This document shows positions 41,510 to 47,088 of a DNA stretch of 48,426 nucleotides, one piece after another. How positions within the stretch are numbered: position 1 is the first letter of the stretch; each line of letters starts with the position of its first letter. Under the pieces are notes generated by a model. That model was given only the letters and a program-made list of their open reading frames with translations, was not told the origin of the DNA and did not search any database. Origin of the DNA: Ilumatobacteraceae bacterium (lineage in GTDB: Bacteria; Actinomycetota; Acidimicrobiia; Acidimicrobiales; Ilumatobacteraceae); contig JAFMMJ010000005.1 in assembly GCA_017859785.1 (NCBI GenBank), forward strand, positions 1-48,426, written 5' to 3'. Both the position numbers and the translations under genes were made by a program.

Positions 41510-42235
41510 ATGACCAGCCGACGCATCCTCATCACCGGGGCCTCCAAGGGCATCGGGCGCGCGCTCTCCCATCGTCTCGCCGCGGCCGGTCATCAGCCGG
41601 TCGGAATGGCGCGCACGCGACCCGATGACGCCCCCGGCGAATTCCTCACCGTCGATCTCGGTGACGTCGACGCGACCGCGAAGGCTCTCAACTCGGCTCT
41701 CGAGGCGGGCCCGATCGACGCGGTGGTGAACAACGTCGGCGTGGTGCGCGCCCAGATGCTCGGCGAGATCGGCCTCGACGACTTTCATCACGTGCACGAC
41801 CTCACGGTGCGCACCTCGATCCAGACGGTTCAGGCGGCGATCCCGGGGATGCGGGAGCGCGGCTGGGGTCGCATCGTGAACATCTCAAGTGTCGTCGCCC
41901 TCGGTGGAGTGGCTGGTCGCTCGGCGTACGGTTCGTCGAAGGCGGCGCTCGAGCATCTAACTCGGATGTGGGCGCTCGAATTGGCTCCCGACGGCATCAC
42001 GGTGAACGCGGTGGCGCCCGGCCCCGTGGAGACCGAACTCTTCCGCGAGAACAATCCGGTCGGATCGGAGGGCGAGGCGCGCTATCTGGCGATGGTGCCG
42101 ATGAATCGGATCGGCTCCGTCGACGACATCGCGGCCGCGATCTCCTTCCTGCTGTCTGATGACGCCGGCTGGCTCACCGGACAGACCTTGCGGGTGGACG
42201 GCGGATCGTCGATCGGCCGTTCGGCCAACGGCTGA
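41510..42235 (+). CDS. Short-chain dehydrogenase/reductase (FabG-like)
   Basis: A 241-residue classical SDR. Cofactor motif TGASKGIGRA at 9-18, NNVG motif, catalytic Ser in NISSVVAL, and Y-x3-K in SAYGSSKAALEHL. The C-terminal LTGQTLRVDGGSS is typical of FabG-type 3-oxoacyl reductases, but this does not prove the substrate. It lies 13 bases after leuS and is convergent with modC. Confidence 0.93.
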   Translation: MTSRRILITGASKGIGRALSHRLAAAGHQPVGMARTRPDDAPGEFLTVDLGDVDATAKALNSALEAGPIDAVVNNVGVVRAQMLGEIGLDDFHHVHDLTVRTSIQTVQAAIPGMRERGWGRIVNISSVVALGGVAGRSAYGSSKAALEHLTRMWALELAPDGITVNAVAPGPVETELFRENNPVGSEGEARYLAMVPMNRIGSVDDIAAAISFLLSDDAGWLTGQTLRVDGGSSIGRSANG

Positions 42236-42247
42236 ACCGGGTCAGCC
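42230..42247. terminator. Perfect hairpin with both stop codons of SDR and modC
   Basis: GGCTGA-ACCGGG-TCAGCC: 6-bp perfect stem, 6-base loop. The TGA of the SDR gene pairs with the complement of the modC TGA. Confidence 0.55.
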
Positions 42248-43297
42248 CCCGGTCACCGACACCTCTGAGGCCTTCACGGAAGCCCAGACCTCGCCGCCCT
42301 CCCCCACTCCGATCGCGTCGAGGCCCGCTGCGGTCAACTCCACGACTATCTCGACTGGGTCGACCAGACGAACCCTGACGCGGTCGGCGGTCCGGTCGAT
42401 CGAGCTGATCCGCGATTGCCACACATTTCGGGGGCTGCCTTCAGGTCGCGCACGGTGCAGAGAGATCGATCGGGGTCGCACGGTCGCGATTGCCTCCCCT
42501 CCCGGCAGGTCGTGCGCGCCGACGGTCAGCTCGAAGTTGCCAGAGGTCAGGGTCGACCCGTTCAGCGACCCTCGGATCAGGTTGATGCCGAGCAGCTCGG
42601 CCACGTAGCCGGTGCGCGGGGCGGCGGCGAGTTCCCTTCCCGTGCCGATCTGGGTGATCTGGCCCTCCTCGAGGACCGCGATGCGGTCGCCGAGGGTGAG
42701 GGCGTCGACAGCGTCGTGGGTGACGATGAGCGACGGTCGTGCGGTCGCCGTCGTCGCGGCCGTCAACAGCGCTCGAACTCCGGCCTTGGCAGCCAAATCG
42801 AGCGCCGAGGTGGGTTCGTCGAGCAGCAGCGCAGTCGGCTCGGCGACGAGGGCTCGAGCGATGGCGACGCGCTGCGCCTCCCCGCCAGAGAGCGAACGGG
42901 GCCGAGCATCAGCGAGATGCCCGATGTGGAATCGCTCGAGTTCACGGTGTGCCCGACGCCGAGCCTCACGGCGGCTTACTCCTTGCGAGCGCGGCCCATA
43001 GGCGACGTTGTCGAGCACATTGAGATGGGCGAGAAGGGCGTCACGTTGGGGGACGACGCCGAGCCGACGCGACTCGACTGGGCGGTGCTCGCCGGTCGCC
43101 GCGTCATCCCAGATCTCGTCGCCGAAGGTGACCCGACCTGAGTCGATCGGATCGAGGCCGGCCACGCTTCTCAGCAGGGAGCTCTTCCCGGCACCGTTCG
43201 GGCCGATCACCACGAGTCGTTCGCCATCGGCGATCTCGAGATCGACCTCAAGGCGGCGCTCCCCGAGGGCTCGTCGAATGGTGATAGCGAGGCTCAT
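42242..43297 (-). CDS. modC: Molybdate ABC transporter ATP-binding protein
   Basis: A 351-residue ATPase that powers molybdate import. Walker A GPNGAGKSS, Q-loop VVPQRDALLAHLNVLDNVAYG, signature SGGEAQRVAIARAL, Walker B ALLLDEP, and H-loop VTHDAVDAL. The C-terminal ~120 residues form an extra regulatory region with a TOBE-like part, as in ModC. The ATG at 43297 overlaps the modB stop by 4 bases; the in-frame upstream extension lies within modB. Confidence 0.93.
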   Translation of the reverse strand: MSLAITIRRALGERRLEVDLEIADGERLVVIGPNGAGKSSLLRSVAGLDPIDSGRVTFGDEIWDDAATGEHRPVESRRLGVVPQRDALLAHLNVLDNVAYGPRSQGVSRREARRRAHRELERFHIGHLADARPRSLSGGEAQRVAIARALVAEPTALLLDEPTSALDLAAKAGVRALLTAATTATARPSLIVTHDAVDALTLGDRIAVLEEGQITQIGTGRELAAAPRTGYVAELLGINLIRGSLNGSTLTSGNFELTVGAHDLPGGEAIATVRPRSISLHRARPEGSPRNVWQSRISSIDRTADRVRVRLVDPVEIVVELTAAGLDAIGVGEGGEVWASVKASEVSVTGG

Positions 43298-44100
43298 GGT
43301 CGCCCTCCGGTGATCGCCGGAACCCAACGGCGGCGCAGGGCGATCAGCACTGCGAGACATACACCGACCTGGATGACCGCGAGCATGAGTGCCCGATCTG
43401 GGCTGTTCTGCAGAGCGAGATAGGTCTCCGTCGGGAGTGTCCTCGTCACCCCCGGGAGGTTGCCTGCGAACGTGATCGTGGCGCCGAACTCACCGATGGC
43501 TCGAGCCCAGGTGAGCACAGTGCCGGCGAGCAGCGCTGAACGCACCGAAGGCACGGTGACGGTCGTGAGCACCCTCCACGGCCGGGCGCCGAGCGCGCGC
43601 GCCATCTCCTCAGGGCCGCGATCAACCGAGCCAAGCGCGCTCTCTAGGGTGATCACGAGGAAGGGCATCGCGACGAACAACTGCGCGATCACCACCGCGG
43701 CCCCGGTGAACGGGACGGTGACCCCGAACCAGTCGTCGAGGAGCCGACCGAGGGGCGCCCGTCGACCGAGAACGGAGAGCAGTGCGACGCCGGCAACCAC
43801 CGGAGGCAGCACCATCGACAGGGTGCATACCGCGAGGATGATCCGCCGGCCAGGGAGCCGTGTTCGGGCAAGTACGAGCGCGAGCGGCACGCCGATGGCG
43901 AGCGCGATGCCGGTGGTGATGAGGCTGGTCACGAGCGACAGGCCAACCGCCCGACCGGTGTCGTCGTCGCTCAGTATCGACGTGAGCTCTCCCCATGGGG
44001 CTCGAGCGATGAGGGCGAGGATCGGTAGCGCGAACAGCGCGACCGCGAGACCGGCAGGAACGATGAGCAACCGCGGGATGGTGGAGGGGCGACGGCTCAT
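43294..44100 (-). CDS. modB: Molybdate ABC transporter permease
   Basis: A 268-residue inner-membrane permease with five to six helices. The cytoplasmic EAA loop is EEMARALGARPWRVLTTVTVP, which docks on ModC. LTWARAIGEFGATITFAGNLPG near the C-terminus is strongly conserved in ModB-type permeases. It overlaps modA and modC by 4 bases on each side. Confidence 0.94.
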   Translation of the reverse strand: MSRRPSTIPRLLIVPAGLAVALFALPILALIARAPWGELTSILSDDDTGRAVGLSLVTSLITTGIALAIGVPLALVLARTRLPGRRIILAVCTLSMVLPPVVAGVALLSVLGRRAPLGRLLDDWFGVTVPFTGAAVVIAQLFVAMPFLVITLESALGSVDRGPEEMARALGARPWRVLTTVTVPSVRSALLAGTVLTWARAIGEFGATITFAGNLPGVTRTLPTETYLALQNSPDRALMLAVIQVGVCLAVLIALRRRWVPAITGGRP

Positions 44101-44849
44101 GGCACACCGAATCCCGCATCGTTGAGCGCGGCGCGCCCGACGGCCGAGGTGAGCATCTCAACGACGGGGCCTCCAGTCTCAGGGTCGATGGCGAGCACCG
44201 GGTAGTCGGCGACCACTTGGTAGTCGTCGGGCACCGACACCGAGGCGACGTCGGAGCGTCCGATGACGTCGGTGCGATAGGCGACCCCGGCATCGGACTC
44301 CCCGAGGGCGACGCGGGTGACGACTGCGCGTACATCGAGTTCGAGGGTCGCGGGGGCCACGTCAGCCCCGGCTCGTCGAAGCATCTCCATGGCGTAGGCG
44401 CCGGCCGGCACCTCGGGAGCGGCGAGGGCGACGACGAGATCAGAACGAGAGAGATCGTCGGGACCCGTGATCTCGAGCGGGTTGCCCGGCGCGACGACGA
44501 TAACGAGCTCATTGGTGGCGAAGACGGTCGCCGGGCCGAGACCCAGACCGTCGCGAACCAGGTCCATCTGCGCGGTGTTGGCGGAGGCGAAGACCGCGGC
44601 GTCGGCCCCGGCGAGGATTTGCGCTGCGAGGGTCGACGAGCCGGCGAGGTTGACGACCACGTCGACCTCGGGATTCGCGGCTTCGTAGAGCTGCTCGACC
44701 TCGGCCATCACCGCGCCGAGTGAGGCGGCCGCGAAGACGTTGACTCGCTCGGGCGCACCCGAGCCCGAACAGGCTGACCCCATGGTGAGGAGCACCGCGC
44801 AGAGCGGGATGGTCGCGGCCAGTCGGCAGCGGAGCACGTCGACGACCAC
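44097..44849 (-). CDS. modA: Molybdate-binding lipoprotein
   Basis: A 250-residue extracytoplasmic solute-binding protein. The N-terminal hydrophobic segment ends in a lipobox-like LTMGSAC (C27 in this start). NVFAAASLGAVMAEV, NLAGSSTLAAQILAGADAAVFASAN and ALGESDAGVAYRTDV are the oxyanion-binding elements of ModA. The GTG at 44849 is chosen because TATCTT lies exactly six bases before it; a GTG two codons earlier abuts the hexamer. First gene of modABC, divergent from a PadR regulator. Confidence 0.93.
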   Translation of the reverse strand: MVVDVLRCRLAATIPLCAVLLTMGSACSGSGAPERVNVFAAASLGAVMAEVEQLYEAANPEVDVVVNLAGSSTLAAQILAGADAAVFASANTAQMDLVRDGLGLGPATVFATNELVIVVAPGNPLEITGPDDLSRSDLVVALAAPEVPAGAYAMEMLRRAGADVAPATLELDVRAVVTRVALGESDAGVAYRTDVIGRSDVASVSVPDDYQVVADYPVLAIDPETGGPVVEMLTSAVGRAALNDAGFGVP

Positions 44850-44855
44850 CGGCAC

Positions 44856-44861
44856 AAGATA
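44856..44861 (-). promoter_or_regulatory. Leaderless -10 of modA (TATCTT-N6-GTG)
   Basis: Minus-strand TATCTT followed by GTGCCG and GTG. The hexamer overlaps the left arm of the palindrome at 44859-44877. Confidence 0.5.
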
Positions 44862-44877
44862 GTCACATATTGACTAT
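44859..44877. promoter_or_regulatory. ATAGTCA-N5-TGACTAT operator between modA and the PadR gene
   Basis: A perfect 7-5-7 inverted repeat, A/T-rich in GC-rich surroundings. It overlaps the modA -10 and ends 6 bases upstream of the regulator's -10. It is the probable binding site of the adjacent PadR protein, which would control both directions. Confidence 0.7.
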
Positions 44878-44883
44878 TTCCCC

Positions 44884-44889
44884 TACGCT
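44884..44889 (+). promoter_or_regulatory. Leaderless -10 of the PadR gene (TACGCT-N6-GTG)
   Basis: TACGCT followed by GGCCAC and the GTG start. Confidence 0.5.
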
Positions 44890-44895
44890 GGCCAC

Positions 44896-45387
44896 GTGGT
44901 CCCCCTGCCGCTGGCCGAATCAACGTGCCTCTGCCTGATCGCTGAGCACATCGACGGTGTCCACGGCTGGCATCTCGTGCGCGACTTGGCCCCGGAGGGG
45001 GCAATCGGCCGGATCTGGTCGCTCTCGCGACCACTCACCTACCGTGCCCTCGACCGCCTCGAGGAAACCTCCCTCGTTACCCGGGACCGCTCCTCGCGAC
45101 GACACACCCTGCGGGTGACCTCGCATGGGCGTCGCAACCGCGACATCTTCCTCGAGACACCGGTCGATCACATCCGCGACCTCCGCACCACCTTTCTGGT
45201 GAAGTGCGAACTTCGGCGTCGCGCGGGGCTCTCCATGAGCGACCTCGCCCAGCGGCAACTCGAGCATCTCGACGACCGACTCAACTCGCTGATCGAGGCC
45301 GACCCGGGTGACGACATCGTGCTCGCCTGGCGCTCCACCTCGGCATCGGCGACCCGGGAGTTCCTCCGGACGCTCGGAGCCTCATGA
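44896..45387 (+). CDS. PadR-family transcriptional regulator
   Basis: A 163-residue regulator. The N-terminal winged helix shows the PadR pattern: CLCLIAEHIDGVHGWHLVRDL, then IGRIWSLSRPLTYRALDRLEETSLVTRDR, followed by the beta-wing RRHTLRVTSHGRR. The C-terminal half is helical (dimerisation, Vir_act_alpha type). Divergent from modABC with 46 bases between starts and a perfect palindrome there, so it very probably regulates molybdate uptake and itself. This is not the usual ModE regulator. The ligand is unknown. Confidence 0.85.
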   Translation: MVPLPLAESTCLCLIAEHIDGVHGWHLVRDLAPEGAIGRIWSLSRPLTYRALDRLEETSLVTRDRSSRRHTLRVTSHGRRNRDIFLETPVDHIRDLRTTFLVKCELRRRAGLSMSDLAQRQLEHLDDRLNSLIEADPGDDIVLAWRSTSASATREFLRTLGAS

Positions 45388-45398
45388 GGCTCGCTCAC

Positions 45399-45404
45399 TA
45401 GGGT
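45399..45404 (+). promoter_or_regulatory. Candidate -10 of the acyl-CoA synthetase gene (TAGGGT)
   Basis: ACTAGGGT lies 43 bases before the ATG, giving a leader of about 37 bases with a GGAGGAA site. Confidence 0.4.
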
Positions 45405-45447
45405 TCGAGCAGCCGGACGAGAGGATCCGGGAAGCTCGGAGGAACCC

Positions 45448-47088
45448 ATGGAGTCCCAGCTCGCCGTCGCCACTGGCCGCCTCGACACCCCGCTGCTCGA
45501 GACGACCATCGACGAGAACTTCCGCGCCACCGTCGCCGCTCACGGCGACCGCGATGCCCTCGTGGTGCGCCATCAAGGGATTCGCTGGACCTATGCCGAA
45601 CTCGACGAGCGCGTCGACGAGTTGGCCCGCGCCTTGCTCGCCGGTGGGCTCGAGGTTGGCGATCGCGTCGCTCTGTGGTCACCGAATCGCTACGAGTGGG
45701 TGCTCACCCAATACGCGACCGCCCGCATCGGCGCGATCATGGTCTGCGTCAATCCCGCCTACCGCACCAACGAGCTGGAGTTCGCCCTCAACCAGTCGGG
45801 ATCCCGGATGCTGCTCGCCGCACCCGAGTTCAAGACCAGCGACTATCGCGCCATGTGGGGCGAGGTATCCGATTCCTGTCCGACCGTGGAGCGGGCCGTG
45901 TTCTTCGAGTCATCGGACTGGTCCGACTTGCTGTCGAGAGCCGATTCGGTCAGCAGCGAGGAGGTCGCCGCCCGGTCGGCGTCGCTCGCCAACTCCGATC
46001 CGATCAATATCCAGTACACCTCGGGGACGACCGGGCTCCCAAAGGGCGCCACGCTCACCCACCGGAACATCTTGAACAACGGTTTCTTCGTCGGCGAGAC
46101 GCTCGGCTACACCGAGCACGACCGGGTCTGCATCCCGGTGCCCTTCTACCACTGCTTCGGCATGGTGATGGGCAACCTCGGCTCCACCACTCACGGGTCC
46201 ACCATGGTGATTCCGAACGATGCCTTCGAACCGGTATCCGTGCTCTCAGCGGTGAGTGAGGAGCGGTGCACCTCGCTCTATGGGGTGCCGACGATGTTCA
46301 TCGCTGAACTGGCCGTGGACGACTTCGACTCCTACGACCTGTCGTCGTTGAGGACGGGGATCATGGCCGGCTCCCCCTGCCCGGTCGAGGTCATGCGCCA
46401 GGTCATCGACCGTATGAACATGTCGGAGGTGACCATCGCCTACGGCATGACGGAGACCTCACCGGTGTCAACACAGACCGGCAAGGACGACTCGATCGAG
46501 AAGCGGGTCGCCACCGTCGGGCGCGTGCTCCCCCACGTCGAGATCCGCATCGCTGATCCCGACACTGGCGACACGGTGGAGCGCGGGGTCTCCGGCGAGT
46601 TTCAAACCCGCGGCTACTCAGTGATGCGCGGCTACTGGAACGAACCCGAGAAGACCGCGGCGGCGATCGACGCCGACGGATGGATGCACACCGGGGATCT
46701 CGCGGTGATGGACGACGAGGGCTACGTCAACATCACCGGCCGCATCAAGGACCTCATCATCCGTGGCGGCGAGAACGTGTCGCCGCGCGAGATCGAGGAG
46801 TACCTCTACACCCACCCGGACATCGTCGACGTTCAAGTGGTCGGGGTACCTGACGCCCGCTACGGCGAGGAGATCTGCGCCTTCGTGCAGGCCCGACCAG
46901 GATCCGAGGTCGACACCGAGTCGGTGCGCGCCTTCTGCTCGGGGCGGATCGCCCACTTCAAAGTGCCTCGCTATGTGATCGTGGTGGATGAGTTCCCGAT
47001 GACGGTGACCGGCAAGATCCAGAAGTACCTCCTGCGCGAGACCGCCACCGAGCATCTCGGCCTCGAAGGTTTCGGATCGACCGCCTGA
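45448..47088 (+). CDS. Acyl-CoA synthetase (FadD-type, AMP-binding)
   Basis: A 546-residue ANL enzyme that activates fatty acids to acyl-CoA via acyl-AMP. P-loop [29 protein letters not shown] (A5); [38 protein letters not shown] (A7/A8, positions ~415-450); catalytic Lys in [14 protein letters not shown]. The whole sequence resembles the medium/long-chain FadD-like group of actinobacteria. GGAGGAA lies just before the ATG. Convergent with rmuC, with one base between the stops. Confidence 0.94.

Follow-up and report, generated by a model that had tools for sequence, protein, structure and literature searches.

The window analysed here is a stretch of 48,426 nucleotides from an Ilumatobacteraceae genome (1.96 Mb, 98.8% complete, 114 contigs). 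It contains the molybdate transport genes modABC, divergent from a gene for a small PadR-like regulator, with a candidate operator in the gap between them:

42242..43360, minus strand: modC, ABC ATPase under the ModC cut-off, with TOBE at its C-terminal end
43294..44100, minus strand: modB, permease (TIGR02141 over cut-off)
44097..44849, minus strand: modA, molybdate-binding protein (TIGR01256 over cut-off; start placed by comparison with relatives)
44856..44861, minus strand: putative -10 box of the modA promoter, TATCTT, overlapping the end of the palindrome by its first three bases
44859..44877, no strand assigned: candidate operator, ATAGTCA-N5-TGACTAT (core TAGTCA-N5-TGACTA, 44860-44876)
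44884..44889, plus strand: putative -10 box of the padR promoter, TACGCT, 6 nt before GTG 44896
44896..45387, plus strand: PadR-like winged-helix regulator, 163 aa, without a TOBE domain, with a putative leaderless GTG start

For modA, the GTG at 44849 is favoured over a start at 44855 by comparison with relatives. The best NCBIfam match of the ModC protein (42242-43360) is to WtpC, a tungstate family, which scores above ModC; both scores are under cut-off.

The letters at 44859-44877 read ATAGTCA-CATAT-TGACTAT, a perfect palindrome with 7-bp arms and a 5-bp spacer, present between the divergent modA and padR-like genes as a first-pass annotation of this DNA had described. It is the sole match in the window at up to three mismatches (0.17 expected); the genome holds one further match, with three mismatches, and no molybdenum gene was evident by eye among the ORFs surrounding it. 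The annotation had also remarked that this A/T-rich palindrome stands out from GC-rich DNA, which agrees with its composition (26% G+C, against 68% in the surroundings) and with repeat counts. Perfect 7-bp inverted repeats with spacers of 3-8 number 66 in the window versus a Markov mean of 48.9; the form with at most two G/C per arm is seen once in the window and never in 20 Markov copies.

Two further claims, that the palindrome overlaps the modA -10 and that modA and padR both have leaderless starts, gained support from comparison with relatives. TATCTT (44861-44856), then 6 nt, then GTG or ATG is an arrangement common to the window and its two nearest relatives; loci L004 and L005 have ATG at the position of the window modA start (44849) and TACGAT where the padR side of the window has TACGCT. 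Of the 59 sites upstream of modA whose arms end in A, 47 have a TAnnnT box starting at the last TA of the site, and 42 have an in-frame ATG or GTG 6-7 nt after this box. At other divergent loci, boxes lie at different distances or were not found. Since the start codons lie 6 nt past the putative boxes on both sides, both window promoters look leaderless, judging from their sequence.

Of 200 family genomes, 132 have a homologue of the regulator; they represent 24 of 27 genera, and 126 of the 132 have exactly one match. Comparison of the DNA around 110 regulator loci within the family revealed a mod gene in reach at 102. padR is divergent from modA at 58 of the 110 and co-directional behind modA at 28; the other 24 comprise 16 loci where modB or modC is within reach and 8 whose fetched DNA shows no mod gene. 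Of the latter, L014 (in genome G038) has modA 1.6 kb away, leaving 7 of 110 loci without a mod gene, some of them at contig ends.

The first-pass annotation had proposed comparing orthologous padR-modA pairs, with loss of the palindrome beside the same gene pair counting against an operator. In this comparison the arms proved to be conserved: TAGTCA-N5-TGACTA occurs at two or fewer mismatches in 41 of the 58 divergent gaps, versus 0.4% of Markov-resampled gaps (5% of which reach three mismatches). Loci with 0, 1, 2, 3, 4, and 5 mismatches number 19, 10, 12, 9, 7, and 1, respectively; several of the 17 gaps at 3-5 mismatches hold a TAGTTC- or TAGTCC-type palindrome instead. Nine divergent loci from a single genus (L145-L153) show 1-3 mismatches. 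In a set of 25 co-directional loci (L114-L138), an exact site precedes modA in 18 and a site with one mismatch in six; at the 25th (L134, in genome G019), where the modA alignment had overrun the operator, a genome-wide exact-pattern search found an exact site. Eleven additional co-directional loci gave eight exact sites, two with one mismatch, and one miss (G069), where an exact site lies farther upstream of modA. Among relatives the arms are kept and the 5-bp spacer is variable. As the site precedes modA even when padR follows the mod genes, the operator stays with the modA promoter.

The pairing extends beyond the family. Of 198 genomes sampled from the order, 30 matched a regulator profile (E <= 1e-30), including 25 that lie outside the family, and 22 outside-family loci were compared (20 of those 25, plus one from G288 of the same order and one from G485 of another order). 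With modA in reach (15 loci), 12 loci carry the site at two or fewer mismatches and three at three mismatches, against 0.4% and 4%, respectively, of Markov controls. For the remaining seven, which lack a detected modA, the search covered 400 bp before padR: two beside modBC (L234, L237) have an exact site there, and five (L222, L233, L238, L240, L241) have no site within those 400 bp, with no mod gene at all in the fetched DNA of L222 and L240. In a wider phylum sample, 20 of 296 genomes match at 1e-15, mostly far more weakly outside the class.

Loci without the regulator were examined in a hand-picked set of 20 modA loci from genomes with no detected padR, one of which has no upstream DNA and five of which have just 164-278 bp. 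The operator is absent from 18 of the 19 testable loci (best matches at 3-6 mismatches); five of the 18 are from the genus of the window itself, where it is absent from five of five. The exception, G024, carries the site; this genome has a completeness of 63%, and the contig breaks off within modB, at the place expected for a regulator gene that follows the mod genes. At L159, modA starts 27 bp from an acyl-CoA ligase ORF that is 79% identical to the ligase following padR in the window, and padR and palindrome are both gone. Querying 101 family genomes with the exact pattern returned 32 occurrences spread over 31 genomes. One precedes moaA, and the other 31 belong to mod loci: 30 are upstream of modA by at most 450 bp, and one is a second copy before padR in G038. 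In this last genome (region L140:3455-5524), padR and modA are separated by a gap of about 1.5 kb holding a 351-aa ORF, with identical 21-bp copies of the operator on the padR side and on the modA side.

The window protein is a weak match to the PadR profile PF03551 (19.7 bits, cut-off 27); six homologues scored 29.3, 32.1, and 30.6 bits, over the cut-off, and 26.3, 18.3, and 22.7 bits, under it. A profile built from 34 homologues matches the solved chains of AphA (1yg2, 7.1e-15, positions 11-135) and PadR (5x11, 2.5e-09, positions 4-138), and thus the homology reaches beyond the winged helix, over approximately 125-135 positions. Residues H92, R94, D95, R97, Q121, W145, and R146 are invariant in the 34-row alignment and kept in 115-119 of 119 homologues. 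A ligand site specific to this family at H92/R94/D95/R97 was considered and is weakened by AphA, which aligns a similar VRDEF stretch in that region; part of the residue conservation is therefore general to the superfamily. An AlphaFold model from a two-row alignment places helices after residue 92, but at a mean pLDDT of 44.6, too low for the model to be relied on.

Regulator, operator, and mod genes thus show conserved pairing and joint absence. These data suggest that the protein encoded at 44896-45387 is a dedicated, autoregulated PadR-superfamily repressor of molybdate uptake acting at the 44859-44877 palindrome, a reading to which we assign a probability of about 0.83. The earlier proposal that a PadR protein controls modA through this palindrome is strengthened by a site that is conserved, stays with modA, is missing from 18 of 19 testable loci without a detected padR, and has nearly all its exact copies at molybdenum genes. 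The regulator would bind the palindrome as a dimer. At the putatively leaderless modA promoter it would cover about -28 to -10, counted from 44849, which takes in the edge of the -10 and the spacer; at its own promoter, likewise putatively leaderless, it would cover about -37 to -19, counted from 44896, on the -35 side. Binding there would thus shut off modABC and padR together. ModE and the TOBE-fused homologues described below suggest, by analogy, that the site would be occupied when molybdenum is plentiful.

If the palindrome is the regulator's site, it could instead serve activation of modABC, as AphA activates its targets. AphA, a named gene activator, is the best-scoring solved chain, and a divergent locus has a single site for its two promoters; however, at 42 of 59 sites the palindrome shares bases with the putative modA -10, where repressors typically bind, and activation appears improbable. 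Less probable still is that another transcription factor binds the palindrome and the PadR neighbor is incidental. Some loci do lack a clear site, but site and padR are jointly absent from 18 of 19 testable loci without a detected padR and are paired in two gene layouts and across families. A chance inverted repeat, terminator, or RNA hairpin without regulatory role can be set aside: perfect 7-bp inverted repeats are common in the window, but the A/T-rich form is unique, its arms are conserved around a varying spacer, its position is fixed relative to the modA -10, and an Rfam scan of 42000-46000 returned zero matches.

Repression of modABC by a PadR-type protein would differ from the established routes of molybdenum control. 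ModE, which combines a LysR-type winged helix with TOBE domains, represses modABC with molybdate. The system described here resembles it in its target and in having a palindromic operator at the modA promoter, and 31 of 119 PadR homologues likewise carry TOBE behind the winged helix. It differs in its PadR-type DNA-binding part, in having at most one TOBE domain (none in the window protein), and in its operator, TAGTCA-N5-TGACTA. ModE was considered as the regulator here and dropped, as the ModE helix-turn-helix profile TIGR00637 found no protein over cut-off in 101 family genomes. Weak matches in 84 of the 101 (best 33.4 bits, cut-off 98.5) are presumably LysR-type proteins. The Moco riboswitch, described as controlling molybdate transport and Moco genes elsewhere (PMC2408646), shares this class of target genes but is an RNA element rather than a protein. 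Its model RF01055 gave no match in the same 101 genomes under stricter filters, and matches in 2 of 14 control genomes. The first-pass annotation had called PadR control an unusual wiring beside ModE and this riboswitch; in the 101 relatives neither the riboswitch nor a ModE over cut-off turned up.

Like PadR and AphA, members of the PadR-s1 group, the regulator has a winged helix and a further C-terminal part. PadR-like regulators have a described operator ATGT-N8-ACAT (PMC5050560). Here the frame is instead TAGT-N9-ACTA, in 95 of 102 called sites under a calling score that favored that frame; the molybdenum target genes and the TOBE fusion are further differences. The open-access literature, judged partly by title, yielded nothing on PadR control of molybdate transport: the word PadR does not occur in the accessible portion of a comparative survey of molybdenum use (PMC6147048), and three other papers are, in the portions seen, unrelated to the subject (PMC11218638, PMC7325909, PMC10482370). 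The components are individually of known kinds, but the PadR-mod wiring and the PadR-TOBE fusion appear to be new. If the repressor reading is true, molybdate uptake in many members of the order would be controlled by a family not previously linked to molybdenum in the literature found, and the fusion would add, beside ModE, another pairing of a DNA-binding domain with a TOBE sensor.

The C-terminal TOBE/Mop segment of the 31 fused homologues contains the string SARNQL, of which SARNQ is a molybdate-binding signature; some of the other homologues are cut by contig ends. Pfam TOBE was confirmed in all four SARNQL homologues checked (58-63 bits, cut-off 22.3), and no TOBE/Mop domain was found in the window regulator. 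Across the genome of the window, TOBE was matched on ModC and nowhere else. On a quick tree, the distribution of TOBE on the regulators requires at least four changes. Two loci with PadR-TOBE proteins (L021, L022) are without a full operator and have several half-site-like pieces between modA and padR.

A domain swap, with TOBE carried either by PadR or by ModC, was considered and is ruled out by the occurrence of all four combinations. Among the 87 loci with a usable modC, both proteins have TOBE in 6, PadR alone in 12, ModC alone in 36, and neither in 33; L015, counted as TOBE-less on PadR, is cut by a contig end. No TOBE match was found anywhere in 14 of 61 family genomes, among them three of 97-98% completeness (G005, G022, G056) that nonetheless possess the regulator. 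Given such genomes and loci, TOBE sensing cannot be general, and any response of the TOBE-less forms to molybdenum must take another route. On balance, we lean toward a separate, non-ModE class of molybdenum regulators that is patchy within the order and combines a PadR winged helix with a TOBE sensor of its own or with none; the TOBE-less forms may read molybdenum either through their conserved, helical C-terminal part (H92, R94, D95, R97, Q121, W145, R146) or by way of the ModC under their control and its TOBE domain.

The homologue set also offers a natural series for joint change of an operator and the helix that reads it. Operator arms of relatives are of TAGTCA, TAGTYC, or TAGTCT types. 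Sites were called for 102 of 119 homologues by a score that favors TAGT...ACTA; the 17 others were dropped with modA out of reach or an unconvincing site. This bias leaves unaffected the counts for divergent and co-directional gaps, padR-less loci, exact sites, and outside-family loci. W41 accompanies every one of the 62 sites whose two arms both end in A (48 with TAGTCA on both sides), none of the 12 with arms ending in C, and none of the 16 of TAGTCT type, a tally that leaves out 12 mixed-type sites of the 102; residue R or H at position 44 accompanies the TAGTCT type in 15 of 16 (in L086, one of these 16, the two arms are TAGTCC and TAGTCT). On the tree, the operator type and the residues of the recognition helix shift jointly 2-3 times. 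Because so few independent changes and a biased site calling are too little for a test of covariation, the tracking of operator type by the recognition-helix residue is suggestive.

The one exact site away from the mod loci is in G070, between a MoeA/Glp-like gene and the moaA that follows it (TIGR02666 over cut-off), 17 bp ahead of the listed moaA start. The region (L221:3001-3035) shows a leaderless-type start, TAGGAT-6-GTG. A backwards-read control pattern has 12 matches in the same 101 genomes, and some chance off-target sites are therefore to be expected; the moaA site is the only one seen. The mod site of G070 itself is of TAGTCC type and its moaA site of TAGTCA type, and as the types differ, the latter may be due to chance; moaA as an extra target in this genome is suggestive. 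Separately, seven loci from genomes without a detected regulator (L163, L164, L166-L169, L176) have a different conserved palindrome, TCACCTTGCCAAGGTGA, approximately 155-175 bp before the start of the modA domain, possibly the site of another molybdate regulator.
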